This document shows, one piece after another, positions 24,149 through 39,834 of a stretch of 64,000 bases of DNA. Positions within the stretch are counted from its first letter, which is position 1. Each line of letters begins with the position of its first letter. The stretch covers positions 37,989 to 101,988 of the forward strand of contig JARGNR010000003.1 in the NCBI GenBank assembly GCA_029212405.1, given 5' to 3'. The notes under the pieces were generated by a model, which saw only the letters and a program-made list of their open reading frames with translations, did no database searches and was not told the origin of the DNA. A program made the translations under genes and the position numbers. Origin of the DNA: Saprospiraceae bacterium (GTDB lineage: Bacteria > Bacteroidota > Bacteroidia > Chitinophagales > Saprospiraceae).

Positions 24149-24310
24149 ATGAAGAGAATTCAGAAATCCAACTTGCCGGAAAAGATTTGCTTAGTTTGCA
24201 ATAGACCATTTAAATGGAGAAAGAAATGGGAGAAAAACTGGGAAGAAGTGAAATACTGTAGTAAACGTTGCAGAGGAATGAAATCAACAACTGCAAGTGC
24301 GACTAATTAA
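24149..24310 (+). CDS. DUF2256 small zinc-binding protein
   Basis: A 53-residue protein starting at ATG 24149, which drops 14 residues that overlap the upstream gene in a longer frame. It matches DUF2256: [19 protein letters not shown], then [11 protein letters not shown], with four Cys placed as a zinc knuckle (CxxC ... CxxxC). It is strongly basic and has an aromatic-rich core. DUF2256 genes often sit beside flavoprotein or photolyase/cryptochrome genes, and here follow a flavin reductase at four bases. Function unknown. Confidence 0.88.
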
Positions 24311-24710: not shown

Positions 24711-24718
24711 TAAATTTG
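24711..24718 (+). promoter_or_regulatory. Candidate -7 element of the catalase-like gene
   Basis: TAAATTTG matches the Bacteroidota -7 consensus TAnnTTTG and lies 25 bases before ATG 24744. No clear TTTG is seen about 20 bases further upstream. Confidence 0.45.
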
Positions 24719-24743
24719 AATTTTGTAAATAACCCCATAGATT

Positions 24744-25760
24744 ATGACTATACCTAAATTGGCTACAGAAAATCCTCCAAAAGGAGAAGCTAAAGCAACA
24801 GAAAAAATCATTTCATTGCTTAAAAAAACATTAGAAAAAGACTACCCACCGCCAAAGAGAACACTTCGTGATGCGCATCCTAAGCAGGTAGGATTAGTTA
24901 AAGCAGAATTTACCGTTTTGGATGATTTTCCCAAACAGTTCAAGGTAGGTGTTTTTAAAGAAGCCAAAACATTCAAAGCGTGGATTCGATTTTCAAAACT
25001 GTCTAATGGACCAGATATTTCTAAAGATTCAAGAGGGATGGCTATTAAATTGATGGGGGTGCCTGGAGAAAAGATATTGGAATCACAAAAAACGGCGACT
25101 ACTCAGGATTTTGTATTTATGAGTACTCAATTTTTTGTCACTAAGGATGTTGAAGGCTTTGCGGGCTTATTAAATGCAGTGAGTAAAGGTAAATTTAGAG
25201 CTGGGTTATATTTTCTTACACATCCCAAATTGGCAAAACTATTTCTGAAGATTAGAATTCAAGTTGCCAATATTTTGGGAGTGGAATGGGGGAGTACAAC
25301 CCCTTATTTGTTAGGAGAAAATGCGGTGAAATATGCGGTAACACCAGATCGGTTTACATCGGACACCATACCCAAAGGGACGCCAGCGGATAATTATTTG
25401 ACGCAACGAATGGCCAGTCAATTGGCTGAGAACGATTTCATGATGAACTTTTATATCCAACCGCAAGTGGATGCAGAAAAAATGCCGATTGAAGACCCTA
25501 GAGTTGTATGGAGCCGTGAGTTGTCCCCACTTATTCGGGTAGCGACGATAAAAGTTTTAAAACAGACGTTTGATAGTGAGGCACAGCAAATGTATGGAGA
25601 TCAACTATCATTTACCCCTTGGCATTCTTTGCCGGAGCATAGACCATTGGGAGGTATTAATCGTGGAAGAAAGGCCATCTATGAAACGATGTCAGCATTT
25701 CGCCATAAGAGAAATAACGAAGTGTCGGAGGAGCCAACGGATTGGAAAGATTTTGATTAA
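24744..25760 (+). CDS. Catalase-like heme protein
   Basis: A 338-residue member of the small catalase-like family (y4iL/SrpA-like), shorter than the roughly 480-residue monofunctional catalases. Visible hallmarks: the distal His region RTLRDAHPKQVGLVKAEF, FKAWIRFSKLSNGPDISKDSRGMAIKLMGV, TQDFVFMSTQFFVTKD, and TPWHSLPEHRPLGGINRGRKAIYE, in which the Tyr of IYE is the expected heme ligand. It lacks a signal peptide and should be cytoplasmic. It may be a peroxidase or lipid-oxidising enzyme rather than a catalase; the reaction cannot be settled from sequence. Monocistronic, followed by a strong terminator. Confidence 0.88.
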   Translation: MTIPKLATENPPKGEAKATEKIISLLKKTLEKDYPPPKRTLRDAHPKQVGLVKAEFTVLDDFPKQFKVGVFKEAKTFKAWIRFSKLSNGPDISKDSRGMAIKLMGVPGEKILESQKTATTQDFVFMSTQFFVTKDVEGFAGLLNAVSKGKFRAGLYFLTHPKLAKLFLKIRIQVANILGVEWGSTTPYLLGENAVKYAVTPDRFTSDTIPKGTPADNYLTQRMASQLAENDFMMNFYIQPQVDAEKMPIEDPRVVWSRELSPLIRVATIKVLKQTFDSEAQQMYGDQLSFTPWHSLPEHRPLGGINRGRKAIYETMSAFRHKRNNEVSEEPTDWKDFD

Positions 25761-25766
25761 GAAGAA

Positions 25767-25796
25767 AGAAGCGGTCTTTTTAATGAGACCGCTTCT
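25767..25796. terminator. Bidirectional terminator
   Basis: An 11-bp perfect stem (25767-25777 with 25786-25796) with an eight-base loop lies between the convergent genes ending at 25760 and 25804. A-rich and T-rich flanks fit termination of both. Confidence 0.85.
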
Positions 25797-25803
25797 ATTT
25801 AAT

Positions 25804-26169
25804 TTAATCGGTGATTGTTACCTCATAACAGGCAACATCCCATGTTAACGTAAGACCATTGGATATATTTAATCCACAACTACTGCTACACTGAGATTCC
25901 GACACAACTGAATATCCTGGTATTCCAACTGTTCGAGCTCGAACATACATCCATTCTTCTCCTGTTGCACCAGTAATTACAACAGTTTCACCATCCTCTA
26001 CTGTTACAGGGCCGCCGATAACACCATCAAAACAATTTGTAGGAGTTGCGCTATTAGCAGTTACTATAATGTCATAAGAAGAATCATTATTTACTGTTAA
26101 ATTGGGTGCTTGGGCATAGGAACATAAAGTAAAGAGGATGAATGCTGTTGAAAATAATAACTTTTTCAT
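25804..26169 (-). CDS. Small secreted hypothetical protein
   Basis: A 121-residue protein with a signal peptide (MKKLLFSTAFILFTLCSYAQ) and a mature domain of about 100 residues that looks all-beta, with four Cys (TNCFDG, SQCSSSCG, DVACYE) likely to form disulfides. I do not recognise the family. The gene stands alone, with a shared terminator downstream and 666 bases without a gene upstream. No sorting domain is present, so it probably stays in the periplasm or leaves by another path. Confidence 0.75.
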   Translation of the reverse strand: MKKLLFSTAFILFTLCSYAQAPNLTVNNDSSYDIIVTANSATPTNCFDGVIGGPVTVEDGETVVITGATGEEWMYVRARTVGIPGYSVVSESQCSSSCGLNISNGLTLTWDVACYEVTITD

Positions 26170-26835
26170 ATTTGTAAATTTTAAAAATTAAGAAATAATA
26201 AGAATGATACATTCATAGAATAACTATTCAGCTCTCTGCAGTTGAGCTGGTTAATGACATTAATTGTCATACTGACTTCCGAAGCAACAATCAAATAGTA
26301 TTGGATCCAGTTTTCAATATTTGAACATCAAACTTTGAAAGAATTATTCAAAAGCATGTAGTATGTAAGTATTATAAGAACAGGCAGCATGCACTGTTTT
26401 GAAAAGAACTTCCCTTTTCAATATCGAATTAATTTAAGCTTTGTACAGTCTACCTTTTTTACAAAGCACATTACAAGGGATAATCTTAACTAAGAACTTG
26501 TTTTTTCATATTGGGTTTATTTCAATGTGATTATCTAATTCATTAGGGTGAATTGGGAAAACGGCTGAATAGGGCAAAAAGGGTAAAATGGGTTATTCAT
26601 TTCGAATTGGTTCTCTAATGTTCAATAGAAAACTTTATAAATACATCAGGGGATACCACTAAAAGTGGAACGTGAAGTAATAATTGCACTCTATTGGTAT
26701 AGTTAAAATAAATGATTGTGAGTCAGTGCATCATCAATTATGACTGGTTTTTAACTTCTAAGAAGCGCAAATTAAGAAAAGAAGGGTTTGGTATTTTGAT
26801 ATTCAGAAAATATTGGATATAAACTAAGGCCTGTC
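26170..26835. other. 666-bp region without recognised gene
   Basis: No frame longer than about 40 codons looks coding. The part next to 26170 must hold the promoter of the small secreted protein. Small inverted repeats occur at about 26230-26250 (CAGCTC...GAGCTG) and 26252-26270 (ATGACATTAATTGTCAT). Otherwise I see nothing. Confidence 0.5.
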
Positions 26836-27633
26836 TTAGAACTGTAGTGGAATTTCAATACCAATAGTGAATTGAAGACCAGAAAATCGAGACGAGACAT
26901 TGGCACTTTCTAATAACCCTTCATCACTTAGCTCAACAGACTCTATGGTAAAATCTTCGATAGCATTTGTATCATTGTCATATTTAAGGTCATGGATTAC
27001 GATTGTATTAAGACCAAAATTGTAGCTAGATTTAATAATAAGTTTAAGAAATGAAAAAATATCTACTTTCAAATCCAAACCGAAATTGGCATAATATAAA
27101 TCTTTCAACGTCTCTATTAATTTATTCCGCTCTGCATAAACAGTAATTCCATCTGAGTCCTCCCAAATAGTTGCTCCAGCTTGGCCTTGCAACTCTTTGG
27201 AATAAAAAGAATACCCCAAATTAAAAGAGGGGATTATATGGATATGCTTAAATGTTGGAAATTTTATACCTAAGCCCACCTGTGTAGAAACAAAAGGTTT
27301 ATAATCAGTTGTAGAACAAAAGTCAAGAGCATTACGAACACCAGAAGAATCGAATATATCCAAACTAGAACAATGGGACATGTAATACGTTCCAAAACTC
27401 AAATCAAGGTTAATCTGAATTAGCTTATTCAAATGATAATTAGCACCGATATTAGTAATGTTTATATTGACGTTTTTAGCATCAATATAACCACCCGTAT
27501 CAAAATCAACCTTTGAGTTCAATAAACGTACGCCATATGATGCATTAACATCTAATTTTGTTTGCGACGAACAGTCTAGGGAAACCAACATGAGTAAGGC
27601 AACGACTATGGAGTAGGATAATTTAGTATTCAA
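26836..27633 (-). CDS. Putative outer-membrane beta-barrel protein
   Basis: I place the start at TTG 27633, which gives the signal peptide MNTKLSYSIVVALLMLVSLDCSSQ; the frame extends to 27684 but would then begin inside the strong hairpin at 27649-27688. The mature protein of about 240 residues alternates in the manner of OmpA- or PorT-like barrels (IQINLDLSFGTYYMSH, VGLGIKFPTFKHIHIIPSFNLGYSFYS, LQFTIGIEIPLQF) and ends in Phe, the usual last residue of outer-membrane barrels. It follows the lipoprotein gene at 27727 but the hairpin separates them. Function unknown. Confidence 0.7.
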   Translation of the reverse strand: MNTKLSYSIVVALLMLVSLDCSSQTKLDVNASYGVRLLNSKVDFDTGGYIDAKNVNINITNIGANYHLNKLIQINLDLSFGTYYMSHCSSLDIFDSSGVRNALDFCSTTDYKPFVSTQVGLGIKFPTFKHIHIIPSFNLGYSFYSKELQGQAGATIWEDSDGITVYAERNKLIETLKDLYYANFGLDLKVDIFSFLKLIIKSSYNFGLNTIVIHDLKYDNDTNAIEDFTIESVELSDEGLLESANVSSRFSGLQFTIGIEIPLQF

Positions 27634-27648
27634 TACAAAACGATTTAG

Positions 27649-27688
27649 AATATTGAGGTGTCGGAATAATAACCGACACCTCAATATT
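27649..27688 (-). terminator. 16-bp hairpin between lipoprotein and barrel genes
   Basis: A perfect 16-bp inverted repeat (27649-27664 with 27673-27688) with an eight-base loop lies 39 bases after the lipoprotein stop and about 16 bases before the next likely start. The T run after it is weak, so it may be a partial terminator or an RNA-stability element that sets the ratio of the two products. Confidence 0.6.
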
Positions 27689-27726
27689 AATATTAAAATT
27701 TTATTTTAATACGAAAAACTACAATG

Positions 27727-29073
27727 TCAAAAATTAAAGAGTGTACTGGTACGTGATGCAAATGGGAATGTTGCACCTGAATGAAATACTTCATAAGTGA
27801 TTAAAACATTATCGTACTCATTAGCTCTATAATCGTCATCTATATCTATCTCATGATGATAGTCGTTATCATTAAATTTAGTCTTTGATGCTGTAACCGA
27901 ACGCAATACTTCGGTACATTCATGTTCTCGATACACGACACCATTAAATGATATTGTAATTTTACCTACTTTGTGATCTTTCCATTTACCATCTGAATTT
28001 CTTTTTTGAACTTTGACTTTTGCACCTACATGAGCATCCCACCAGCTTATATCTTCCATGTCATAATTCTTGTAATATGAAACTCGTAAATCACCATTGC
28101 CATAGGTTAAAGTGATAACATGACCATCAAATTCATCATCAAGACAAGATGGAGTATTTGAAACGACATGAGAAACAGTTGAACTAGAAAATGAATTACA
28201 TAAACCACAAATAGAAGGTGTGAATTCAACGGTAATATTATTTACTTCGACTCCTAAAGGTGCCGGGTCGTATCTATTGGTAGCTAAGTATCCACCTTGA
28301 CCAATATTCACATTAGAAATATTAGAAACGCTGCCGTCACCCCAAGTGATAGTTAAATCTCCTGCGCAAAAAGGAGTGCCACCTTCATCATTAATAAACT
28401 CTACTCTAATAAGAGGTCGAACGACAAATGGAAGGAGACTAACTTGTGTCACATTAACTATAGATACAACTATTTCGCAAGGCTCTCTAGGCACGGAGGT
28501 GGTATTATTTCCGTTATTAGGGGTAAGATTACTAATAGGATCAGGGAGGGAACCATCTGGTCGAATTATTTCATTGTTTTCGTGGTCAGTAACAAGTACT
28601 CCTTCTTTCCAAATTTGATCGTCTCCTAGTGATTGGATGTCTGATAATACAGGGCCAGATGCATACAGTCCTTGCCTAATGTACTTGTGGTATTCTCCGG
28701 CAATTCCAATTTCCATCGCATCATTAAGTACATATTGTTTCGCTGTACTTGACACGTAGATATCTAAATTGTCTCTAAAGTTGGCATCGCCTTCTTCTAA
28801 AGTACGATATGAATCATAAAGAGAATTGAAGCCCAATCGACTGTAGAGGTCATCTCTATCATCGGTCTCCAGTTCACTGATATATGATTTAAAATCACTT
28901 AAATGTTGTTTGGATGAGAATTCAAATACCCCGTTATTAACTTGAGGGTCTGCGGGTGTTGTATGCCTTTTTGTAATTTCATCAGGTGTAGAATGTAATT
29001 CAGTATCATCTGAACAACTAAAAATGAACATAGTGAAAAGCGCGCACGCTAGTACGTTTCTAAAATAAGTCAT
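27727..29073 (-). CDS. Lipoprotein of unknown function
   Basis: A 448-residue protein with a lipoprotein signal peptide (MTYFRNVLACALFTMFIFSC, lipobox FSC, lipidated at about Cys20) and acidic +2 residues (SDD). The mature N-terminal part is helical and polar (SDFKSYISELETDDRDDLYSRLGF), as in some Bacteroidota surface lipoproteins. The middle has PKD- or Ig-like strands (RVEFINDEGG...LTITWGDGSVSNI...) with CGLC, and the C-terminal part is rich in Asp, His and Tyr. I do not recognise a family. It precedes the barrel gene on the same strand and may be its surface partner; that is inference. Confidence 0.75.
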   Translation of the reverse strand: MTYFRNVLACALFTMFIFSCSDDTELHSTPDEITKRHTTPADPQVNNGVFEFSSKQHLSDFKSYISELETDDRDDLYSRLGFNSLYDSYRTLEEGDANFRDNLDIYVSSTAKQYVLNDAMEIGIAGEYHKYIRQGLYASGPVLSDIQSLGDDQIWKEGVLVTDHENNEIIRPDGSLPDPISNLTPNNGNNTTSVPREPCEIVVSIVNVTQVSLLPFVVRPLIRVEFINDEGGTPFCAGDLTITWGDGSVSNISNVNIGQGGYLATNRYDPAPLGVEVNNITVEFTPSICGLCNSFSSSTVSHVVSNTPSCLDDEFDGHVITLTYGNGDLRVSYYKNYDMEDISWWDAHVGAKVKVQKRNSDGKWKDHKVGKITISFNGVVYREHECTEVLRSVTASKTKFNDNDYHHEIDIDDDYRANEYDNVLITYEVFHSGATFPFASRTSTLFNF

Positions 29074-29583
29074 ATAATAAATATTTTAATTAATAATTGG
29101 TTACGTAATTATAATTGGTTGTTGTAAATGTAATTGATTGTAATTGTTCTTTGAGTTAACGAGCTCAAGATGCAAAGTTAAGACAAATTAAACGATATTG
29201 ATAGTCATTTATTTTTTTTTATTTGGGAAGGGGGCATTTCGCATAAAATAAAAGCTGCTCATTATACATACCGCTCATCATGCATTCGACAATATCTTAT
29301 GTGAGCGCATTCCTTTGTAGATTCATTCATTGAATTAGGGATTGCTCCGAATTTGATGCGGGATAGTTTTACTTAAGCAAGTTGAACTATGCATTTCACC
29401 ATTAATAGCAATTTTTTATAGACACTCTTTTTGACGATGCCATCATCGTGTATCTAATACAAATACAGTGTAATCAGCAAAATGTGGTCTTTGTCTCTCG
29501 AATTATATGCCTTCTTGAAAAAGAAGTATTAGAATTAACTTATCTGAGTATACTGAATCGTTGTTGTACCAATACGATAAAAT
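29074..29583. other. 510-bp region without recognised gene
   Basis: It holds the upstream region of the minus-strand lipoprotein gene, including a candidate -7 element at 29173-29180, and ends at the tRNA terminator. The rest shows no coding frame or convincing structured RNA. Confidence 0.5.
29173..29180 (-). promoter_or_regulatory. Candidate -7 element of the lipoprotein gene
   Basis: On the minus strand this reads TAACTTTG, matching TAnnTTTG. It would give a leader of about 90 bases before ATG 29073. A clear -33 TTTG is not seen. Confidence 0.4.
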
Positions 29584-29615
29584 AAAAAAGCCGAGACATT
29601 CAACTCGGCTTTTTT
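29584..29615. terminator. Terminator after tRNA-Leu
   Basis: A seven-base-pair GC-rich stem (AGCCGAG with CTCGGCT) is flanked by six A on one side and six T on the other. It lies about 20 bases beyond the 3' end of the minus-strand tRNA. Confidence 0.85.
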
Positions 29616-29634
29616 ATGCTAAAGATAAACTATG

Positions 29635-29716
29635 TACCCCCGGGGGGAATCGAACCCCCACTCCCGAAGGAACTGGATTTTGAATCCAGCGCGTCTACCA
29701 ATTCCGCCACAGGGGC
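29635..29716 (-). tRNA. tRNA-Leu (anticodon CAA)
   Basis: The minus strand folds as a class II tRNA: acceptor stem GCCCCTG paired with CGGGGGT, D arm GGCGGAATTGGTAGACGC, anticodon stem CTGGA/TCCAG with loop TTCAAAA (anticodon CAA, reading UUG), a short variable arm TTCCTTCGGGAG, and T arm GGGGG-TTCGATT-CCCCC. The discriminator base is A, as in tRNA-Leu. CCA is not encoded (CAT follows), so it must be added by the nucleotidyltransferase. A terminator follows. A broken copy of its 5' half lies just upstream. Confidence 0.95.
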
Positions 29717-29778
29717 GAAGGTACAAATGAATGATTTTTTGTTTAGAGAGGAATCAAAAAAAACTCTCTGGTTTGGAA

Positions 29779-29829
29779 TCCCGCTTAGGCGGGACGCGTC
29801 TACCAATTCCGCCACAGGGGCGAAGGTAC
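29779..29829 (-). pseudogene. Truncated tRNA-Leu 5' half joined to a hairpin
   Basis: The 35 bases at 29795-29829 are identical to 29690-29724, which cover the 5' flank, acceptor strand and D arm of the intact tRNA-Leu. Where the anticodon arm should begin, the copy instead has a six-base-pair hairpin (TCCCGC...GCGGGA, 29779-29794). No anticodon, T arm or 3' acceptor strand follows, so it cannot make a tRNA. It lies upstream of the intact gene on the same strand. Confidence 0.85.
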
Positions 29830-29964
29830 TTCTCTAAAAATTCGATAAATAATTAATTTTTAAAGATTTTTCACTTCGTTGCTTCCAACTAAAGCGACGC
29901 AAATGTATTGAAATTTTCTATATTGCACAACATGAATCAATTTCCTTTTTATAAATTTTAATTT

Positions 29965-30441
29965 ATGAAATGTTTTTTATCGGTATTGCTTGTGTTTATG
30001 ACGGTTTCCTTATTTAGTCAAGTCGATTTAATCTCAAAAAAAGGAGGCAAGTTTTTGTATAAAGATCAGCTTTTTACCTGCAATGAAATGGGACCGATCT
30101 ATGAACAATCGGTTGAGGCTTTCAAATTATATACGTCTGGCAAAAAAAATAAAATGGTGGCTAAATTTTTTGCCTATACGGGCCTGTTGTTTGTTGGAGG
30201 GGGATTATTGGGGACGAATTATGGAGATTTAAGTGACCGATACACTGGGGCGGCACTCTTGGCTATTGGGGCTCTACTTGAGTTGGTCTCTATTGTACCT
30301 GCACTAATTGGTAGTCAGAAGTTGAAAAAAGCGCGAAATGTGTTTAATTTGGAATTGATTGAAGAACATGGTTATGGGATAGGAGCAAGTTTGTCGATTG
30401 GAATTAGTAGACATGGGATGGGGGTGGTTTTGTTGTTTTAA
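29965..30441 (+). CDS. Tandem paralogue family, member 1
   Basis: A 158-residue protein with a signal peptide (ending LFSQ). It shares with the next four genes the pattern LI.KKG.K.LYK.Q...C..MG.IYEQS.EA.KLY..G, one or two hydrophobic segments rich in Gly (FVGGGLLG...AALLAIGALLELVSIVPALIG), then KLKKARNVFN...IEEHGYG and an end of the form GVVLLF. I do not recognise a named family. The mature part is likely membrane-embedded through the central hydrophobic pair. It is the most diverged member together with member 2, and is followed by the 9-base repeat tract. Confidence 0.8.
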   Translation: MKCFLSVLLVFMTVSLFSQVDLISKKGGKFLYKDQLFTCNEMGPIYEQSVEAFKLYTSGKKNKMVAKFFAYTGLLFVGGGLLGTNYGDLSDRYTGAALLAIGALLELVSIVPALIGSQKLKKARNVFNLELIEEHGYGIGASLSIGISRHGMGVVLLF

Positions 30442-30512
30442 TTGCTGGAATTGCTGGAATTACTGAATCGCGGAATCGCTGGATTGCTGGAATTGCTGAA
30501 ATGCTGGATGGA
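30441..30512. repeat. Degenerate 9-base tandem repeat
   Basis: About eight imperfect copies of ATTGCTGGA (with variants such as ATTACTGAA, ATCGCTGGA and shorter units) fill the gap between paralogues 1 and 2, beginning at the last base of the stop codon. It is non-coding in context. Confidence 0.85.
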
Positions 30513-30543
30513 AATTATATTATTTGATTGATAAACTATTGTT

Positions 30544-31026
30544 ATGAAATGGCTTCTTTTTATTTTTTTTGTTGTGTTAAGTAATGCTCTTGTTGGCCAG
30601 ACAGACCTTATACAAAAGAAAGGAAGTAAATACCTTTATAAGGAGAAAATCTATCGATGTCAGGATTTAGGAGTGGTTTTAAGAAATAATCCAGAAGCTT
30701 ATCAGGTGTACCTCTCAAGCAGAAAGACAACATCCATAGCGAATACCATGTTGTATGGTGGAATTGCAAGTTCATTAACCGGCTTAGTCATTGGGTCTAA
30801 CGCAGAAAAATTTTCAAGAAATGCAACTGCAACACTTTTATTTCTTGGAGGGGGGGTGATTGCTGCAATTTTTTCTTTAATTCCTAGAGGCATTGCAAAC
30901 TCAAAACTTTTGAAATCAATAAAAATTTTTAATTTTCAAGAGATAGAGCAGAATGGTTACCAATTACAATCAAATGGACAATTACACCAAGTGGATCATG
31001 GTATAGGATTTGTTTTTAATTTTTAA
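30544..31026 (+). CDS. Tandem paralogue family, member 2
   Basis: A 160-residue paralogue with a signal peptide (ending LVGQ). Family pattern: DLIQKKGSKYLYKEKIYRCQDLG, then NPEAYQVYLSSRK, a hydrophobic pair (MLYGGIASSLTGLVIGS and LLFLGGGVIAAIFSLIP), SKLLKSIKIFNFQEIEQNGY, and the end GIGFVFNF. The C-terminal aromatic Phe resembles outer-membrane strands, but the central segments look like inner-membrane helices, so location is uncertain. It stands between the repeat tract and member 3. Confidence 0.8.
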   Translation: MKWLLFIFFVVLSNALVGQTDLIQKKGSKYLYKEKIYRCQDLGVVLRNNPEAYQVYLSSRKTTSIANTMLYGGIASSLTGLVIGSNAEKFSRNATATLLFLGGGVIAAIFSLIPRGIANSKLLKSIKIFNFQEIEQNGYQLQSNGQLHQVDHGIGFVFNF

Positions 31027-31064
31027 TCCGATCAATTCGATTTTTAAACCAATGAATTAGTAGT

Positions 31065-31568
31065 ATGAAATATTTATGCTTTTTGATGTTTACAATTTGT
31101 GCAAATGGAGTATTAGGGCAAACTCATTTGTTGACCAAAGAGGGCTCTAAGTATTACTATCAAGGGAACGAATACTCTTGTGAAAAGTTGGGATCTGTTT
31201 ATGAGCAAGTAGAACCTGCTTTTAAATTGTATGTCAGAGGAAAGTCTTTATCAGAAGGAGGAAGAAGTAAAATTAGATTTGGGATTGGTATGATTCTAGG
31301 AGGATTCGTAAGTGTATACGCAGGAGCTTCTGGCACGATTAGCGGTCAATCTCCCAACTTTTTAGCAATAATAGGGTTCGTTGGGATTTTTGGTGGGCTA
31401 TCTATAGAACTCATTGGAATTGGACAGAAAATTAGTGGTAACAATAAGTTGAGGAGAGCAAGGAATGTATTTAATGATACCATGATGGAACGACATGGAG
31501 CCAATTCAGAGCTATCCCTTTCTCTTGCACAGACATACAATGGAATAGGTTTTGTCGTTACATTTTAA
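31065..31568 (+). CDS. Tandem paralogue family, member 3
   Basis: A 167-residue paralogue with a signal peptide (ending VLGQ). It has LTKEGSKYYYQGNEYSCEKLGSVYEQVEPAFKLYVRGK, a hydrophobic pair around IGMILGGFVSVYAGA and IGFVGIFGGLSIELIGIG, NKLRRARNVFNDTMMERHG and SLSLAQTYNGIGFVVTF. Its last 60 bases reappear in decayed form at 32262-32320, which shows that they were part of a duplicated segment. Function unknown. Confidence 0.8.
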   Translation: MKYLCFLMFTICANGVLGQTHLLTKEGSKYYYQGNEYSCEKLGSVYEQVEPAFKLYVRGKSLSEGGRSKIRFGIGMILGGFVSVYAGASGTISGQSPNFLAIIGFVGIFGGLSIELIGIGQKISGNNKLRRARNVFNDTMMERHGANSELSLSLAQTYNGIGFVVTF

Positions 31569-31624
31569 ACGGATCACAATCTAACTCTGTATATAGATTA
31601 CAAACCAATGAATGACTATCACAT

Positions 31625-32134
31625 ATGAAATTTATTCTATCATTATTACTTGTTTTTTTCTTTTTTAGTGGTTTTGGACAGGGAGAATTTCTTGTCAAAA
31701 ATGGATCCAATTACTTTTATAAAGGAAAAGGATATAAATACAAAGATTTAACTCCAATATATAGACAGCATGAACCTGCTTACAAAATATATATGGAAGG
31801 CGTGGATTTAAGGAAAAAAGCTTCAAGAAATGGGTTAAATGGACTGTATTTGATAGGTGGGGGTGCGCTAACTGTCTTGGTAGGTTCATCTGTCGCAGAT
31901 TCAAATTTAGACATCTCACCTAATGGTTATGCAGCATTTGGAACGATAGCTGTTTTGGGTGGATACATTATAGAAATAATTGCACTTACTCAACGATTTA
32001 AAGGAGACTCCAAGCTCAGGAACGCAGTAGATGTTTTTAATTTTGGAGTCATCGAAAAGCATGGGTACAAGCAAGAAACCTCATTACTACTAGGTCAAAC
32101 TTCAAATGGTATTGGACTGGTACTAAGTTTTTAA
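31625..32134 (+). CDS. Tandem paralogue family, member 4
   Basis: A 169-residue paralogue with a signal peptide (ending GFGQ). It is very close to member 5: FLVKNGSNYFYKGKGYKYKDLTPIYRQHEPAYKIYMEG, then RKKASRNGLNGLYLIGGGAL, a second hydrophobic segment (YAAFGTIAVLGGYIIEIIAL), FKGDSKLRNAVDVFNFGVIEKHGYKQETSLLLGQ and SNGIGLVLSF. The difference from member 5 is concentrated between the two hydrophobic segments (SSVADSNLDISPNG here). Role unknown. Confidence 0.82.
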   Translation: MKFILSLLLVFFFFSGFGQGEFLVKNGSNYFYKGKGYKYKDLTPIYRQHEPAYKIYMEGVDLRKKASRNGLNGLYLIGGGALTVLVGSSVADSNLDISPNGYAAFGTIAVLGGYIIEIIALTQRFKGDSKLRNAVDVFNFGVIEKHGYKQETSLLLGQTSNGIGLVLSF

Positions 32135-32154
32135 AATATTGCTGCGCTAAATCT

Positions 32155-32240
32155 GCGTTTTTTCAAACTACTTGCTGAGGTCTATACCCAATTCGAATCT
32201 AATTAGTACAATAGGTTTAAAGTAGACGATACCGTCATGG
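32155..32240 (-). pseudogene. Decayed fragment of the rseP 3' end
   Basis: On the minus strand this reads IVYFKP.VLIRFELGIDLSK, then a stop where rseP has Trp, then FEK. It aligns to the rseP C-terminus IVGFFILIGLMIFALGLDVSKWFK. The DNA match to 32911-32985 is clear by eye (for example CAATTCGAATCTAATTAG against CAATGCGAATATCATTAG). It is part of the tandem duplication and is not functional. Confidence 0.85.
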
Positions 32241-32261
32241 ATTGTTATAGATATAGTCCAA

Positions 32262-32320
32262 AATAATCCTTTTCTTTTGCATAGAAATACAATGTAAAAA
32301 GTTTTGTCGTTACACTTTAA
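32262..32320 (+). pseudogene. Decayed 3' end of paralogue 3
   Basis: The segment matches 31512-31568, the last 19 codons of member 3, ending in SFVVTL-stop against GFVVTF-stop, with an in-frame stop where member 3 has Gln of AQTYNG. It directly follows the rseP fragment, so the duplication junction lies near 32241-32261. Confidence 0.8.
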
Positions 32321-32995
32321 ACTAATCACAATCTATCTCTGAATATAGATTGTAAACCAATGAATGACTATACATATGAAATTTATTCTATCACTATTAC
32401 TTGTTCTTTTCTTTTTTAATGGTTTTGGACAAGCAGATTTTCTTGCTAAAAATGGCTCCAACTACTTTTATAAAGGCAAAGGGTATAAATACAAAGAATT
32501 AACTCCAATATATAAACAACACGAACCTGCTTATAAAATGTATATGGAAGGCGTGGGTTTAAGAAAAAAAGCTTCAAGAAATGGGTTAAATGGACTTTAT
32601 TTGATAGGTGGAGGTGCGCTTGCTGTATACGCTTTATCATCTCTCCCAATTCTTAGTTTAGATGATTCCCCGAATCCCTATACCTCAATTGGTGTAATAG
32701 CCGTCCTGGGAGGATACGTTCTTGAAATAATTGCATTAATTCAACGATTTAAAGGTGATTCCAAGCTCAGGAAAGCTGTGGATATATTTAATCTTGGAGT
32801 CATCGAAAAGCATGGTTACAAGCAAGAAACCTCATTGCACCTAAATCAAACCTCAAATGGTATTGGACTTGTGTTCAGTTTTTAAAATACTCTTGTTTTA
32901 ACTACGTTTACTTAAACCACTTACTGACGTCTAGACCCAATGCGAATATCATTAGTCCTATAAGTATAAAGAATCCGACGATTGTGGCATATTCC
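32263..32995. repeat. Segmental duplication, copy B
   Basis: Matches copy A (31512-32245): the decayed member 3 end, member 5, and the 3' end of the intact rseP gene. Upstream of the enclosed gene both copies share AATCACAATCT, TATAGATT and AAACCAATGAATGACTAT. Confidence 0.8.
32376..32885 (+). CDS. Tandem paralogue family, member 5
   Basis: A 169-residue near-copy of member 4. ATG 32376 is the start that matches the other members; an ATG four codons upstream exists only because of a small indel. Signal peptide ends GFGQ; then FLAKNGSNYFYKGKGYKYKELTPIYKQHEPAYKMYMEGVGLRKKASRNGLNGLYLIGGGAL, a diverged loop (YALSSLPILSLDDSPNPYTS), IGVIAVLGGYVLEIIAL, and SNGIGLVFSF at the end. It arose from member 4 by the segmental duplication. 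It converges on rseP with 22 bases between stops. Confidence 0.82.
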   Translation: MKFILSLLLVLFFFNGFGQADFLAKNGSNYFYKGKGYKYKELTPIYKQHEPAYKMYMEGVGLRKKASRNGLNGLYLIGGGALAVYALSSLPILSLDDSPNPYTSIGVIAVLGGYVLEIIALIQRFKGDSKLRKAVDIFNLGVIEKHGYKQETSLHLNQTSNGIGLVFSF

Positions 32996-34245
32996 ATAAA
33001 CTTATCGTTTGGTTTTTTACCCGTAATTACTTCCCAAATCAAGAACATGACATAACCTCCATCCAATGCAGGGATCGGTAATAAATTGAAAAAACCGAGT
33101 AGAATAGAGAGCATAGCAGTGATTCTCCAGAATGTTTCCCAGTCCCAACTTGGATCAAACATATTGGCAATTGAGAAGACACTTCCCAATGAATCTGTCG
33201 CCTTAATTTTACCAGTAAACATTTGCTTGAACGCCTTTAATTGTCCAGTCAAAAATCCTACACTTTTGTCCCATCCTTTAGGAATGGATTCTCCGATACT
33301 AAATTTCTGTCTTTGAATATCGAAGAACGCTTCCGCTTGTGCGTTTCCAATACCCAATTCACTATTTTCTCCTAATTCAGCGGTAAGTTGAAGGGTGTCA
33401 GTTGAGTTTCTTAATACTGTTAAATTAACTTTCTGATTCGGCTTTTTTGAAATTGCCTCAGAAAATACATGCAACCAAGGAGTACTTTGGCCATTTACTT
33501 TTATAACTCGATCCCCAACTTTTATTCCAGCTTTTTCTGCAGGAAATTTAGCTTTTACTGAACTTACTTGGTGAGGCATTCGCAATCGGAACAATCCTTT
33601 TCCTTTGTTTTCGTGTTTTGTTAGCTTTTCAGCCAGTCCAGCAGGGATGGGTAATTGAACATTGTTCCCGTCTCTATTTACAGTTAAAAATTGAGGATCA
33701 TTAAGTACGATCTCTTGAGTGACCGTTCCAGGATTATATCTTTCAAATTTAACATCCCCAATTGCAATAATGTTATCTCCGTCTTCAATTCCAATTTCTT
33801 TACCGAGTTCACTAGCATATACCCCATAGGTCATGTCTGTGCTATTGATATAAGATTCTCCATAATACCAAAGTATCCCAGCAAAAATTATGATTCCTAA
33901 AATGAAATTTACGGTTACTCCTCCAAGCATGATGATCAATCGTTGCCATGCAGCCTTTGATCTAAATTCCCATGGCTGAGGTTCTTGTTCCAATTGTTCT
34001 GTATCCATGCTCTCATCAATCATTCCTGAAATCTTCACATATCCACCAAATGGAATCCAACCAATACCGTATTCCGTTTCTCCTATTTGCTTTTTAAATA
34101 AGGAAAACCCTGGGTTGAAAAAGAGATAAAATTTTTCTACTCTTGTCTTAAACCATTTGGCTGGAAAAAAATGTCCACATTCATGAAGAACGACCAAAAT
34201 GGAAAGACACAAAATCAACTGAGCTGCAATACTTATAATATCCAT
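32908..34245 (-). CDS. rseP: RIP metalloprotease RseP (site-2 protease)
   Basis: A 445-residue M50B zinc protease of the inner membrane. The active-site HECGH is at residues 21-25 in the first membrane helix, with PFGGYVKISGM soon after; a PDZ region is centred on VSSVKAKFPAEKAGIKVGDRVIKVNGQ (about residues 215-245); and the second catalytic motif LLPIPALDGGY is in a late membrane helix, Asp being the third zinc ligand. It cleaves membrane-spanning anti-sigma factors and remnant signal peptides within the bilayer. It stands alone on the minus strand. Its last 80 bases were copied into the neighbouring paralogue array. Confidence 0.95.
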   Translation of the reverse strand: MDIISIAAQLILCLSILVVLHECGHFFPAKWFKTRVEKFYLFFNPGFSLFKKQIGETEYGIGWIPFGGYVKISGMIDESMDTEQLEQEPQPWEFRSKAAWQRLIIMLGGVTVNFILGIIIFAGILWYYGESYINSTDMTYGVYASELGKEIGIEDGDNIIAIGDVKFERYNPGTVTQEIVLNDPQFLTVNRDGNNVQLPIPAGLAEKLTKHENKGKGLFRLRMPHQVSSVKAKFPAEKAGIKVGDRVIKVNGQSTPWLHVFSEAISKKPNQKVNLTVLRNSTDTLQLTAELGENSELGIGNAQAEAFFDIQRQKFSIGESIPKGWDKSVGFLTGQLKAFKQMFTGKIKATDSLGSVFSIANMFDPSWDWETFWRITAMLSILLGFFNLLPIPALDGGYVMFLIWEVITGKKPNDKFMEYATIVGFFILIGLMIFALGLDVSKWFK

Positions 34246-34474
34246 GAAATCTAATCTCTTGTTTAGTTTAACTTGTGCAATAGCTTTGTTTCGTTACTAC
34301 ACAGTATGTTGCAACGGTCTATTGCTGCAATTTGTTTCATAATTGGCTGCAAATGTAAGTATTCATTTTTTAATAGAACTATTGAATTGATTAAGCTTGT
34401 AAGAAAATCGATATCTTACCCTATTTTAGAGACATAAATTCTTTTCTTTGAAATCCTCATTTGTTAGATTTATC

Positions 34475-34882
34475 ATGAAATACATCACACTGCTTTTATT
34501 CTTAGTCTTCAATTGTGCAATTTTTACCGGATGTGGTTCGGTAAAGTTGGATGATAATGTGGAGGCAAAAACTGCGAATCAATCGCCAAAGGTTTATTTA
34601 AGTCTTGCGGATTATTTAAGGACACAAGGAGGCGTAATTGTATCTGGTACAGGAAACAATGTAATTGTGCAAATTCGAGGTGTTAATAGCATTCAGGGAG
34701 ATACGAGACCCTTTTATTATATTGATGGAGTTGCGATAGGGCGATCCTATGCTTCTGCGAATAGTGCACTTAACCCCAATAACATAAAAAGTATACGAAT
34801 TCTTTCCAGTCTCTCTGAATTGGCTATCTATGGAGAAAATGGAAATAATGGAGTCATTCTTGTCAAATCAAAACGGAAATGA
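34475..34882 (+). CDS. Small lipoprotein with TonB-dependent receptor plug domain
   Basis: ATG 34475 starts a lipoprotein signal (MKYITLLLFLVFNCAIFTGCG, lipobox TGC); a TTG at 34448 gives a longer leader. The mature protein of about 115 residues is a lone plug domain: YLRTQGGVIVSGTGNNVIVQIRGVNSIQGDTRPFYYIDGVAI, then NPNNIKSIRILSSLSELAIYGENGNNGVILVKSK, which is the standard SusC-type plug pattern. No barrel follows in this gene or the next. Such stand-alone plugs are known in Bacteroidota but their role is unclear. Confidence 0.85.
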   Translation: MKYITLLLFLVFNCAIFTGCGSVKLDDNVEAKTANQSPKVYLSLADYLRTQGGVIVSGTGNNVIVQIRGVNSIQGDTRPFYYIDGVAIGRSYASANSALNPNNIKSIRILSSLSELAIYGENGNNGVILVKSKRK

Positions 34883-34980
34883 GTCATTTAAGTGGGGTGT
34901 CATATCTCCTTAATTAACTGACCACCAATTAAATTACCCAAAAAGGATATAGAATGGTAGGCCTTATTCAAACTATATTC

Positions 34981-34988
34981 TACTTTTG
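34981..34988 (+). promoter_or_regulatory. Candidate -7 element of the PD40 lipoprotein gene
   Basis: TACTTTTG fits TAnnTTTG and lies 44 bases before ATG 35033. Confidence 0.4.
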
Positions 34989-35032
34989 CGCCAAGAAAAT
35001 CACCAATTAAATAGAATTAAGACTTAATATAT

Positions 35033-36133
35033 ATGAGAAATTTCATCTTATCACTTTCGATTATTTGCATTTTTATAGCTTGTAAATCCGAAAAACCTAC
35101 ACCAGAAACTACTGATTCAGGAGAAACTGAAAATACAGATACACTTAGATACGATCAAGAAGTCCATTTGAAAAATGTGAAACAATTGACTTTTGGCGGA
35201 GACAATGCAGAAGCCTATTGGAGTTTTGATGATTCTAAAATAGTTTTTCAAGCTAAAAACAAAGAATGGGGCGCACCGTGCGACCAGATTTATGTATCAG
35301 AAGTTGGAGTGGAAATGAGAGATGTTCCTCAACTGGTAAGTACTGGAAAAGGAAGAACTACGTGCAGTTACTTTTTACCTGGAGATTCCACTATAATTTA
35401 CGCATCTACGCATGAAGGAGGAGACGCATGTCCACCTGAACCTTCAAGAGCAGAAGGATATGTATGGCCAGTATATGCAACCTTTGATATTTACACTGCT
35501 GATTTAGAAGGGAATTTACTGCAAAAAATGACGGACTATGAGGGATATGATGCCGAAGCGACCGTTTCACCCAAGGGAGATAAAATTGTTTTTACTTCCA
35601 TGCGTTCTGGTGACCTCGAGTTATGGACCATGGATATAGATGGGAGTAATAAAAAACAGGTAACTGATCAATTGGGATACGATGGAGGTGCTTTCTTTTC
35701 TCCAGATGGAAAAAAATTGATTTTTAGATCGTCAAGACCGTCAACAGATGCGGATAAGAAGAAATATAAAGACTTGTTGGCAAAAGGCTTAGTCATGCCT
35801 AGCGATATGGAACTCTACGTTTGTAATGTCGATGGTAGTGAGCTGACAAAGATTACTGATTTAGGACAAGCGAATTGGGCACCATTTTTTCATCCAAGTG
35901 GGGAAAAGGTTATATTTTCAACAAATCATGCATCGCCTCAAGGTGGAAGGCCAACATTCAACTTATACATGATAAACTTGGATGGAACAGGGTTAGAGAA
36001 GATTACACATGATAGTGTATTTGATGCATTCCCTATGTTTTCAAATGATGGAAAGAAACTGATTTTCTCTAGTAATAGAAATAATGGAGGGACAAGAGAA
36101 ACGAATTTATTTGTCGCTGACTGGGTAGAGTAG
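35033..36133 (+). CDS. TolB-like (PD40 repeat) lipoprotein
   Basis: A 366-residue lipoprotein (MRNFILSLSIICIFIACKS, lipidated at Cys17) followed by a Thr/Glu-rich linker and a beta propeller made of PD40 repeats: WSFDDSKIVFQAKN, VSPKGDKIVFTSMRSGDLELWTMDIDG, FSPDGKKLIFRSSR, HPSGEKVIFSTNH and FSNDGKKLIFSSNRNNGG. The whole matches the TolB C-terminal propeller family without the Tol N-terminal domain. Periplasmic or surface location. Partner unknown; the next gene in the same direction starts 100 bases later. Confidence 0.88.
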   Translation: MRNFILSLSIICIFIACKSEKPTPETTDSGETENTDTLRYDQEVHLKNVKQLTFGGDNAEAYWSFDDSKIVFQAKNKEWGAPCDQIYVSEVGVEMRDVPQLVSTGKGRTTCSYFLPGDSTIIYASTHEGGDACPPEPSRAEGYVWPVYATFDIYTADLEGNLLQKMTDYEGYDAEATVSPKGDKIVFTSMRSGDLELWTMDIDGSNKKQVTDQLGYDGGAFFSPDGKKLIFRSSRPSTDADKKKYKDLLAKGLVMPSDMELYVCNVDGSELTKITDLGQANWAPFFHPSGEKVIFSTNHASPQGGRPTFNLYMINLDGTGLEKITHDSVFDAFPMFSNDGKKLIFSSNRNNGGTRETNLFVADWVE

Positions 36134-36233
36134 ATTTCAAGGATTACAAAGAATACTTATCTTAAATTTCTGTTTTTTCTTTATATTTCATCGTCAAATA
36201 AAGATTGATGTTAACTCGCAAATAAAAAATTGA

Positions 36234-37211
36234 ATGAAAAAACGAAGAGATTTTATGAAACAAGCTGGTTTGCTAGCTGTAGGATTACCTTTTATTGGGA
36301 CTTTAAATAGTTGTAAATCAGATAAAAATGCGGGGGAAGCAGCTGTCAAAGCTACCGTTGATGAAGCGGTGAAGTCTGGGTTTACATTGGATGAGTTTGG
36401 GATTCAATTGTGGTCTGTGAAAGATTTCATGAATAAAGATCCCAAAGGCACACTAAAAGCTCTTAGTGAATATGGGTACAATACGATAGAAAGCTTCCAA
36501 GGAGAACAAGGAGTCTTTTGGGGGATGTCTGCCAAAGACTATAATACCTATCTCAACGACCACAATTTAAAATCAGTTTCTAGCCATTGTGATCCTCAAT
36601 ATGCATTAGACCCAACAAAAAGGGATGAATTTAAAAAATTGGTGGATGATGCTTCTGAAATCGGTATGGAGTACCTAGTCAATCCGTATTTAGGGTTTTT
36701 GAAGACACAAGATGAGTTCAAAAATGCAACGGATGGAATGAATGAATTGGGAGAAATATGTGCAAAAAATGGCATTCAATATTGTTACCATAATCACCAT
36801 TATTCATTTATGGATCTGGATGGAGCATATCCTCAAGATATCATGATGAAAGGTACTGAAGGAGGATCTGTTGGATTCGAAATGGATATTTATTGGGTAG
36901 TTGCTGCGGGTGCGGATCCTGAAGCATGGTTAAAAAAGTACCCGAATAGATTTGTGTTAAGTCATGTCAAAGATCGATACAAAGAAGAGCGTTTGATGCA
37001 GATCAAAGAAGAGGAAGGAACAGATGAAAATTTTGGTATTAATGGATCATGTGTATTAGGAGTAGGGCAGATAGATTTCCATAAAGTACTCCTTACAGCC
37101 AAAGAGCAGGGAATGAAGAAATACATTGTTGAGCATGAGCGATATGACGATATGACTTCAATGGAAGCAGTAGAAAAAGATGCTGCCTATATGAAACAGT
37201 TCATTGTTTAA
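36234..37211 (+). CDS. Sugar phosphate isomerase/epimerase family lipoprotein (TIM barrel)
   Basis: A 325-residue protein with a twin-arginine-like leader (KKRRDFMKQAGLLAVGLPFIGTL) that ends in a lipobox (NSC, Cys27), so it is probably exported folded and lipidated. The rest is a xylose-isomerase-like TIM barrel: GIQLWSVKDFM, YGYNTIESF, SSHCDPQYAL, CYHNHHYSFMDL, GFEMDIYWVVAAGADP, RFVLSHVKDRY and KYIVEHERYDDM. The His, Asp and Glu residues in these motifs match metal and substrate positions of the family. The sugar substrate is unknown. Confidence 0.9.
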   Translation: MKKRRDFMKQAGLLAVGLPFIGTLNSCKSDKNAGEAAVKATVDEAVKSGFTLDEFGIQLWSVKDFMNKDPKGTLKALSEYGYNTIESFQGEQGVFWGMSAKDYNTYLNDHNLKSVSSHCDPQYALDPTKRDEFKKLVDDASEIGMEYLVNPYLGFLKTQDEFKNATDGMNELGEICAKNGIQYCYHNHHYSFMDLDGAYPQDIMMKGTEGGSVGFEMDIYWVVAAGADPEAWLKKYPNRFVLSHVKDRYKEERLMQIKEEEGTDENFGINGSCVLGVGQIDFHKVLLTAKEQGMKKYIVEHERYDDMTSMEAVEKDAAYMKQFIV

Positions 37212-37241
37212 ACTAGAATAAAGAAAATCTTTACAAAATAG

Positions 37242-37277
37242 AAGCCTGCAATAATTCGTTTTATTGTAGGCTTTTTA
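37242..37277 (+). terminator. Terminator after the isomerase gene
   Basis: A 13-bp stem with two non-Watson-Crick pairs (37242-37254 with 37261-37273), loop TTCGTT, followed by a T run. Confidence 0.8.
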
Positions 37278-37302
37278 ATTGGGTATAAAGTTGAATTGAA
37301 AT

Positions 37303-37719
37303 ATGGAAAAAATAGTAATATTCATTCTACTAAGTTGTTGTTTCCTTGCTTGTGAATTATCTCCTCCCCCTCCCAAGTGTGTGTCTAATCCACCTTTTGA
37401 TCAACTGGAAACCTTTTCAAAAGAGTATCATGCTGAAGTAATTAAGAAGCTAGAAAAATCCAAAGCAACTGACTTTCGGTACTTTTTCAAAACCTTTGTT
37501 GAAAGCGGTGAAGAGACCAATATGATATTAAATCTACGAAATGAAAATCAATGTTTCGATGTGAAGATGTTGGTTGAAAATTGGGAGAAATTAGGTGGTA
37601 TGCGAAAGGTGAATGGCAAATCTTATCCTAAAGAATTGGTTTTATTGAAATGGAATATTGAAAACAGAAATGACGATAAGATAGTGGTCTATGATGATAT
37701 GAACTGGATTATTGACTGA
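37303..37719 (+). CDS. Small hypothetical lipoprotein
   Basis: A 138-residue lipoprotein: leader MEKIVIFILLSCCFLACE with lipobox LAC, then a Pro-rich segment (LSPPPPKCVSNPPFD) and a helical/beta domain with KATDFRYFFKTFVESGEETNMILNLRNENQCFDVKML. It has three Cys in the mature part. I do not recognise the family. It is convergent with the next gene, 11 bases apart. Confidence 0.75.
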   Translation: MEKIVIFILLSCCFLACELSPPPPKCVSNPPFDQLETFSKEYHAEVIKKLEKSKATDFRYFFKTFVESGEETNMILNLRNENQCFDVKMLVENWEKLGGMRKVNGKSYPKELVLLKWNIENRNDDKIVVYDDMNWIID

Positions 37720-37730
37720 TTCAAAAGAAA

Positions 37731-38828
37731 TTACTTTTTGATGTCTAATTTTAATGAGAATTGAAGAGAGTCTTTTTTATTACTTCCAATATAGATCATC
37801 GAATCGGGTGTTACTTGATGATACTTTCCTTTAATATTTAATTCCCAGAAGTCCTGAAAGTTCCAAAATTCCAATTGGTTGTATTTTGGATCTATGATGT
37901 ATTCAAAAAAAGAAAGAGAGTCAGCTATTTCAACAGCCCCAAATCTCCCCTTGTCCAAAATGATACTTTTGAAACTTTGTATGTCTTTTCTATTTTGACT
38001 AGTAATGCCTTCTTTCATGAATTTAATATCCGTTATTTTCCATACGCCTGTGATCGGACTTTCGATATTACTGGTCATATAATTCTTTGCATCTTCAATA
38101 AAATGTTGGGTATAGAAGTAAAATCCAATTAATAGGATGACTTTAAATATTCGGCCAGAATTGATGAGGTGATAATGGTTTTTTAATGGGTGATATTCCT
38201 CAGTTAGTTTATTATTCTGGCGAGAGAAAAATGAATAATATGCAGGAAAGTCGGCAAAGATGAAGGAGCCAATAACAGCTAGATAAATACTATTCTTATA
38301 GATATAGCAACTGTCAAAACTATAATTGTGCATTACCGTATTTGCTAAAATTGCAAACATTAATATGTTTCCTAGTCGTTGGGTTTGTCTGAAGCAAATC
38401 AGGGCTAATCCCCCTAAAATGATATAACCAATATATGCTTGAAATATAGGACTGAACCCATAAAAGGCATTTGCAAAAGTGTCTGCCTCCAATTGTGCCA
38501 GTTTGGTTTCGCCTGTAAATAAAGTGTAATTATAAAAATGGCCTTCTGCTTTTAGAAGGGCAGTTGTAAAGACTGCATAAACCAATAGAACCCTTAGAAC
38601 AACTTCAGACCAATAGTTAAACTTTTCGTGGTTTTTATATTTTAAAGTAGCATAGGCAGCACCTAGTCCAGTTATTCCCATACAAATACCGAGTAACCAC
38701 GCCCTGAAAATATCCATTTTGTCATCTCCACACATCCACCATTTTACAGTCAATGTAGAACCTAAGACTCCAATTAGTGTTAGATTGAGAACATTGCTAA
38801 TTGTAGTATGAAGATCTTTGTACTGCAT
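37731..38828 (-). CDS. DoxX-like membrane protein with C-terminal extracytoplasmic domain
   Basis: A 365-residue protein with about seven membrane segments in the first 245 residues (for example NLTLIGVLGSTLTVKWW, VVLRVLLVYAVFTTALL, AYIGYIILGGLALICF, IFKVILLIGFYFYTQHF) and a soluble C-terminal domain of about 110 residues that starts ITGVWKITDIKFMKEG and has a lipocalin-like beta pattern. The membrane part resembles DoxX/MauE-type proteins, but the match is weak. ATG 38828 is preferred. It is monocistronic; function unknown. Confidence 0.7.
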   Translation of the reverse strand: MQYKDLHTTISNVLNLTLIGVLGSTLTVKWWMCGDDKMDIFRAWLLGICMGITGLGAAYATLKYKNHEKFNYWSEVVLRVLLVYAVFTTALLKAEGHFYNYTLFTGETKLAQLEADTFANAFYGFSPIFQAYIGYIILGGLALICFRQTQRLGNILMFAILANTVMHNYSFDSCYIYKNSIYLAVIGSFIFADFPAYYSFFSRQNNKLTEEYHPLKNHYHLINSGRIFKVILLIGFYFYTQHFIEDAKNYMTSNIESPITGVWKITDIKFMKEGITSQNRKDIQSFKSIILDKGRFGAVEIADSLSFFEYIIDPKYNQLEFWNFQDFWELNIKGKYHQVTPDSMIYIGSNKKDSLQFSLKLDIKK

Positions 38829-38949
38829 ATGTAATAGGGCATATTGATATCTTCAGAAAAGATACAGTAATGCATGTTTATTTTCGTAATTGAAAGATGA
38901 TAATGTCATTTCTTTAACAATATCTAACTATATTATATTTTGCATTTCA

Positions 38950-39834
38950 ATGAAAAAATGGATTAAGAGAATGGGCTGGTTTTTATTCATATCTGTGCTG
39001 ATTGTAGTATTTCTTGTTAATGGTGGGATGAAAATGATGCACTTTTCAGATGATAAAGCAAAAGCATATTTTGAGGATAGAGGATTTGATGGTCAGATTG
39101 AAAAAATACGAATAAATGACATTGATGTAAAGGTAATCTCAAGTAAGCCCAACGCAGAAAATCAGACATTAATCGTTTTTGTACACGGTGCACCAGGAAG
39201 CTGGGATGCATTTAAACAATTCATTACAGACAAGGATATTTCGAGAGGAGCAACTGTAATAGCATATGATCGCCCGGGATATGGAGGGTCAAGTTTGCTT
39301 CCTATGTCTGGAATTCAAGATCAAGCTGAGATATTGAAAGAAATCATACGAACCTATAAAACAGAAAAAGTGATATTGGTAGGGCATTCTTATGGTGGTC
39401 CAATTGCTGGCTTAGCCGCATTAGATGAAAAAATGGAGGTGGATGCAACGATTATGATTGCACCATTAGTAGATCCAGAGAGTGAGCCTATATTTTGGTA
39501 CTCCTATTTTTCATATTGGAAATGGTCGAGATGGATGTTGCCTCCATCTTTAATTGTAGCTGGTTCTGAAAAGTTTGCACATTCAAATGAATTGGCACAA
39601 ATTGATTCTTTATGGAAAAAGGCTGAAAGTAGGTTTATCCATGTGCATGGATTGGAAGATGGGTTGGCACCTGGGAAAGAAAATATTTCATTTACCAAAG
39701 CCAATATTCCCGAACAAAAGTTGACTCAAATTGTATACGAAAAAAAGGGGCATCTTGTTATTTGGACTGATTTTGAATTAATGAAAGCAATAATTATGGA
39801 TGAAAAGGATCGAAAAATCGGATTAGTAGAGTAA
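38950..39834 (+). CDS. Alpha/beta hydrolase, membrane-anchored
   Basis: ATG 38950 starts a basic leader and one membrane anchor (KKWIKRMGWFLFISVLIVVFLV); upstream in-frame codons to 38890 are not needed. The hydrolase domain shows the oxyanion region FVHGAPGSWDAF, the nucleophile elbow GHSYGG (Ser in VILVGHSYGGPIAGLA) and the catalytic His in KKGHLVIWTDF; the acid is probably Asp in HVHGLEDGLAPG. It belongs to the large alpha/beta hydrolase family (Abhydrolase_1); substrate unknown. It probably faces the periplasm. Confidence 0.88.
   Translation: MKKWIKRMGWFLFISVLIVVFLVNGGMKMMHFSDDKAKAYFEDRGFDGQIEKIRINDIDVKVISSKPNAENQTLIVFVHGAPGSWDAFKQFITDKDISRGATVIAYDRPGYGGSSLLPMSGIQDQAEILKEIIRTYKTEKVILVGHSYGGPIAGLAALDEKMEVDATIMIAPLVDPESEPIFWYSYFSYWKWSRWMLPPSLIVAGSEKFAHSNELAQIDSLWKKAESRFIHVHGLEDGLAPGKENISFTKANIPEQKLTQIVYEKKGHLVIWTDFELMKAIIMDEKDRKIGLVE

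Follow-up and report, generated by a model that had tools for sequence, protein, structure and literature searches.

In the window, the 64,000-nucleotide stretch of DNA analyzed here, two neighboring genes (P4 and P5) very probably arose through a tandem duplication by illegitimate recombination, after which both copies were kept under purifying selection and a block of DNA before P5 was conserved. The draft genome that carries the window comprises 6.8 Mb in 222 contigs. P4 and P5 are the last members of a row of five paralogues (P1–P5; 158–169 amino acids) on the plus strand at 29965–32885, which is bounded by a minus-strand tRNA-Leu(CAA) gene (29634–29716) on one side and by rseP on the other (Table 1). 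The start of P5 that is homologous to that of P4 is the ATG at 32376; the open reading frame list begins at an in-frame ATG at 32364 (173 amino acids).

Table 1. Features of the duplicated locus and tRNA-Leu(CAA) copies in the window and in other loci (window coordinates unless a locus is named).
Feature	Position	Strand	Evidence or remark
Paralogue 3 (P3), intact	31065–31568	+	Open reading frame, alignment; last 30 codons (from 31476) form the unit's left edge
Paralogue 4 (P4), 169 amino acids, intact	31625–32134	+	Open reading frame
Paralogue 5 (P5), 169 amino acids, intact	32376–32885	+	Open reading frame, alignment
rseP (M50 site-2 protease, PDZ), intact	32908–34245	-	Peptidase_M50, E 2.3e-55; last ~23 codons form the right edge of the unit
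First unit copy: P3 end, leader, P4, rseP-end relic	31476–32229	+	Aligns end to end with 32228–32978
Second unit copy: P3-end relic, leader, P5, real rseP end	32228–32978	+	Alignment
Duplication junction	32222–32229		Breakpoint scan; equal-best 32222–32229, near-best 32220–32231
rseP 3'-end relic (final ~23 codons), with a stop replacing the Trp codon	32153–32229	-	Shuffles; 54/71 identical over coding part
P3 3'-end relic (final 30 codons), stop codon preserved, with two further stops inside	32228–32319	+	Alignment
Conserved block: P3-relic end and leader, candidate promoter/leader	32266–32375	+	95/109 identical
tRNA-Leu(CAA) copy with hairpin TCCCGC-CTAA-GCGGGA	Window 29795–29829	-	
tRNA-Leu(CAA) copy with hairpin TCCCGAT..ATCGGGA	L052, about 1260–1330	-	
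tRNA-Leu(CAA) copy with hairpin CCTGCCTG..CAGGCAGG	L113, from 2167	+	
tRNA-Leu(CAA) copy with altered anticodon arm	L049, about 6345–6420		Judged by eye

The Duplicated Unit and Its Junction

The two unit copies form one local alignment interrupted by a few short gaps only, and lie next to each other in direct orientation and in the same order, with the source genes P3 and rseP intact on the flanks. Each unit measures ~752 bp and consists of the last 30 codons of P3, a paralogue, and the last ~23 codons of rseP, with edges drawn from this single sequence, as the P4/P5 pair occurs in one genome only. The original prediction, that the end of P3, a paralogue, and the end of rseP recur in this order on both sides through a tandem duplication of about 740 bases reaching into both neighbors, stands for the order and for the event, and needs a small correction in size. 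Its borders shift as well, since the copied part of P3, placed from 31512, starts at 31476 in the alignment, and the junction, placed at 32241–32261, is moved some 12–40 bp further left by the breakpoint scan. One tandem duplication that covered the gene and reached into both neighbors would explain the aligned parts and is supported by them.

The two joined sites lie in the interior of rseP and in the interior of P3 and are non-homologous, which points to illegitimate recombination and not to crossing-over between paralogues. In strict register, the bases GA at 32228–32229 match both joined sites, an overlap of ~2 nt that is also expected by chance and proves no mechanism. No further repeat of ≥20 nt sits at both unit edges within 27000–37000, and no transposase was recognized by eye among the 21 open reading frames of ≥80 amino acids at 24000–40000.

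Both relics are real and far above chance. The rseP relic scores 41 against the rseP end at 32902–32978 (dinucleotide shuffles: mean 9.3, maximum 15, 0/500 reaching the score), and the P3 relic together with its leader (32266–32363) scores 70 against 31514–31611 (mean 9.6, maximum 18, again 0/500). The reading proposed beforehand had been staked on a significant match of each fragment, and both were found, as was the decay that it described: in frame, the minus-strand rseP relic reads LGIDLSK-stop-FEK where rseP itself reads LGLDVSKWFK, so that DLSK is followed by a stop in place of Trp, and the P3 relic gives DTVMD...FVVTL-stop, interrupted by two stops. The left part of the P3 relic (32230–32265) matches in register at 20 of 36 positions, a level reached at 0.044% of window offsets. 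A search of the bacterium's own genome with 32150–32262 returned the query itself and then only matches with E values of 0.055 and 0.36, a sensitivity at which the rseP source was not listed.

The Conserved Block Before P5

Identity between the unit copies amounts to 427/509 in the gene, 49/55 in the leader, and 10/16 in the 3' spacer; in the relics, it is 68/92 (74%) over the whole P3 relic, 46/54 over the last part of that relic, and 76% over the rseP coding part. The earlier view that the gene was kept and the flanks decayed is thus borne out by the rseP relic and by the portion of the P3 relic farthest from P5, but not by the 110 bp before P5, which are as well conserved as the gene, a degree of conservation on which they may be proposed to hold promoter or leader signals.

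The whole spacer between P4 and P5 may even have been kept for its function, with the rseP end providing a terminator for P4 and the P3 end a promoter for P5, a reading that is possible, though on the unlikely side. Conservation of the block exceeds that of the remaining relics (77/110; Fisher p = 0.003) and that of the synonymous sites of the gene (p = 3e-5), as this reading would have it, but the borders in these tests were set post hoc, and the leader alone does not differ significantly from the rseP relic (p = 0.10, also with post hoc borders). A promoter-like motif, TTTG-N19-AAGTTTTG, lies before P5 at 32276 with one mismatch to the consensus, and its best counterpart before P4 has two mismatches; a motif as good as that of P5 is present in 7.7% of 1500 random 148-nt stretches, which makes it suggestive only. 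Similarly, the hairpin in the P5 leader has only a slight advantage over shuffles (z -1.98; P4 leader, z -0.52), but the rseP relic (32120–32230), which would have to supply the terminator, folds no better than shuffles (z 0.84) and has drifted. It is likewise conceivable, if doubtful, that the P3 end (32266–32319) and the leader turned from coding DNA into a promoter of P5's own, with P5 expressed independently of the P1–P4 row. If true, a decayed coding stub would have become regulatory DNA, kept and tuned once it was freed from coding for P3.

Divergence and Selection on P4 and P5

The P4/P5 pair is under purifying selection. The two genes show 86 differences, 47 of them at third positions, and maximum likelihood yields an omega of 0.17 (dS 0.66, dN 0.11) and rejects an omega of 1 (2dlnL 46.8) as well as an omega of 0.5 (2dlnL 18.2), the least that is expected under free drift of one copy on an equal branch. 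The NG86 method gives a dS of 0.51 and a bootstrap range for omega of 0.14–0.36. The pairwise omega averages P4 and P5; with P3 as the outgroup, five amino-acid changes fall on P5 and four on P4, with 23 sites uninformative. Because omega is well under 0.5 and amino-acid change is even, both copies look constrained at the sequence level, and the suggestion made earlier, that selection favored a second copy, gains support. In neutral simulations, no stop arose in 18% at 43 substitutions and in 4.3% at 86, so that intact reading frames are weak evidence alone.

Divergence is unevenly spread along the gene. Codons 84–113 (31874–31963 vs. 32625–32714) have a dS of 2.07, compared with 0.41 and 0.55 on either side (~15/24 vs. 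28/91 synonymous differences; p = 0.008, with borders chosen after seeing the data), and the leader together with the first 20 codons is the least diverged part of the pair. The alignment of the divergent patch also contains a compensating pair of 1-nt gaps. One event alone, with neither subsequent conversion nor a local burst, does not account for this patchiness, which is what would be expected if later gene conversion had kept the gene bodies alike and the duplication were older than gene divergence implies. Such a history is nonetheless improbable, since the relics show no more divergence than the synonymous sites of the gene, which argues against homogenization of the gene alone; the rseP relic is about as diverged as might be guessed if its age were that of the gene pair. 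P3 may also have donated sequence by conversion to the divergent middle of P5, as the two have a short TGTATACGC stretch in common by eye; the even polarization of the amino-acid changes does not decide for or against this.

Relatives and History of the Array

Besides P5, no relative of P4 exceeds 39% identity in its own genome or 34% in 59 other genomes, and a single-protein scan of the genome contigs detected no relative. In the tree, P4 and P5 group together (96/96) and are joined by P3 (82/89), and G2c groups with G1a (97/92); the deeper forks are weak. The A1 profile, searched against genomes drawn from a larger group with at most nine candidates scored per genome, so that counts are lower bounds, places the family in at least 45 of 398 genomes of the same-family set, the own genome counted. 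The best genome outside the rows of the profile itself reached 90.6 bits in these 398, compared with 212 for P5 and 207 for P4.

The arrangement at rseP differs among relatives. In G002, of the same genus, the interval from rseP to tRNA-Leu(CAA) holds four paralogues, the nearest of which faces rseP across a relic-free spacer of 74 bp between the two gene ends; the paralogues of G002 reach no more than 33% identity to P4, so that a true ortholog of the P4/P5 ancestor was not seen in this genome. In G001, rseP is followed by a gap of ~690 bp and by one paralogue near the contig end. In G003, also of the same genus (L052, 1002–1096), rseP is followed by a frameshifted paralogue 3' end of ~100 bp and then by the tRNA. 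This relic scores 39 against G2a, 30 against G2b and G2c, and 24 against G1a (0/500 mononucleotide shuffles each), and its score is reached in 3/500 shuffles for G2d, 6/500 for P3, 99/500 for P4, and 86/500 for P5. Most simply, the array in G003 was lost through deletion; a family member is found elsewhere in this genome (C17, E 4.7e-6).

Among 80 public rseP loci, a paralogue is present in two only, those of G002 (L085) and G001 (L086) (profile E ≤ 0.1), and tRNA-Leu(CAA) lies downstream of rseP in 25, on the rseP strand in 21 and on the other strand in four; some of the 80 loci end soon after rseP, so that the absence of paralogues or tRNA is unproven for every locus. Because the tRNA is this widespread and the paralogue is confined to these two loci, the rseP–tRNA neighborhood appears old, and the array seems to have been added within the genus. 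Synonymous sites of rseP are saturated between the own genome and G001 or G002 (dS over 4), against a dS of 0.66 for the pair, which would make the P4/P5 event younger than the splits from these genomes.

In the window, the tRNA gene shares a strand with rseP; it is inverted in L085 (= L049), L118, L119, L163, and also L052. Extra tRNA-Leu(CAA) copies, partial or full, with the anticodon arm replaced or interrupted by a hairpin, were seen in the window, L052, L113, and L049 (Table 1), and possibly arose when a REP-like hairpin inserted into copies of the tRNA. Between P1 and P2 (30428–30509), the window also contains imperfect short direct repeats (ATTGCTGGA-like).

Tandem sets of the family also occur in G002, G095, G119, G254, G282, G226, and G290. 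One self-comparison of each of 12 loci revealed paralogue and leader repeats, and no second case with relics of both neighbors was recognized. In L165 (G095), a leader-like stretch before the first paralogue recurs as an 81% direct repeat (3308–3355 and 4039–4086), and its second copy sits in the 0.9-kb gap after that paralogue and may mark another duplication relic. In L174 (G002), another family member is followed downstream by direct repeats of ~200 bp (3263–4534).

That five tandem paralogues supply homology, and that tandem sets recur elsewhere, could suggest that the extra copy came from unequal homologous crossing-over between neighboring paralogues; this origin is very improbable and was rejected, as it is contradicted by the junction of rseP with P3, and a paralogue-to-paralogue exchange would have left rseP uncopied. 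An assembly artifact, for which the many contigs of a draft genome could be cited, has a negligible chance and was also rejected, since misassembly would yield near-identical copies and these differ by 16% in the gene and 24–26% in the relics, with more than half of the gene differences at third positions.

The Protein Family

All that can be said of the P1–P5 family, from the protein sequences and a predicted structure, is that its members appear to be small exported or membrane-anchored proteins. The AlphaFold model of P4 (12-row alignment; mean pLDDT 75.6, pTM 0.59) begins with a signal-like helix, followed by a short region of strand, a helical hairpin of two long helices, and a low-confidence C-terminal strand pair, and the terminal Phe is common to all 12 aligned members. 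A Foldseek comparison of this model with the PDB gave no match at E ≤ 0.001 (best E 0.15); the top rows contained pore-forming-toxin B chains and SH3BP5, with TM-scores below 0.5 in the best 50 of 519. Nothing passed the cut-off for P1–P5 in Pfam (six proteins searched) or for any of seven proteins in NCBIfam, and five proteins searched against PHROGs, which has no cut-off, gave one match, of P3 to the holin family phrog_175 (E 0.007). A holin identity is not supported, as the Pfam holin models stay below their cut-offs (13.4 bits against 28.4 for P1 and 13.8 bits against 25 for P3). The rseP query returned nothing informative from a phage collection. Repeated tandem growth and loss of the arrays suggests that dose or variety is under selection.

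Proposed History

We infer that the locus originally carried P3 (plus strand), a single ancestor of P4 and P5 (plus strand), and rseP (minus strand). A site in rseP ~23 codons from its end would then have recombined with a site in P3 ~30 codons from its end, with ~2 nt shared, so that ~752 bp were duplicated head to tail. P3 and rseP would have remained untouched at full length, with an rseP stub joined to a P3 stub as the new middle. This event would have taken place in the present lineage, after its split from the other sequenced members of the genus, in a family that appears to form tandem arrays repeatedly. Purifying selection would afterward have acted on both copies, for extra dose or a division of labor, and the rseP stub and far P3 stub would have drifted, with the 110 bp before P5 conserved, most likely as its promoter and leader.

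Comparison With Known Systems

Nothing on this locus appeared among the matches listed in open-licence PMC papers. The process is ordinary and known, and the locus is a new instance in which both edges of the event are still legible. In Salmonella, spontaneous duplications with junction microhomology have been mapped in a screen for overlaps of ≥7 bp, with ≥11 bp in the verified duplications (PMC3411829). In Escherichia coli, 9-bp borders have been used to direct duplications, in a report that cites an earlier study by its authors in which microhomology was not necessary (PMC11111574). The present unit resembles bacterial duplications by illegitimate recombination in being head to tail, with edges that fall within genes, a join that shares little homology, and no insertion element recognized at the edges. 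Unlike the Salmonella set, it has a join of ~2 nt, outside the reach of that screen (PMC3411829), and it is less than 1 kb long, lies in a natural genome, and has diverged to a dS of 0.66.

Within the A1 profile family, P1–P5 are like the other arrays, with relics of both neighbors recognized only here, and they display one step of array growth at a site where G003, of the same genus, keeps only a relic. Both duplication edges remain readable at a synonymous divergence of ~0.66, and the two neighboring genes serve as internal clocks. The locus is therefore a small test case for the survival of stubs, the speed of their drift, and the possible conversion of a copied coding end into a promoter. 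The stubs are partial, stop-containing gene copies in intergenic space, as are other persisting pseudogene fragments. Young pseudogenes are removed quickly in Salmonella (PMC2916853); unlike these, the present stubs have persisted while the copies diverged substantially, which may reflect a needed promoter next to them or a length too small to impose a cost.
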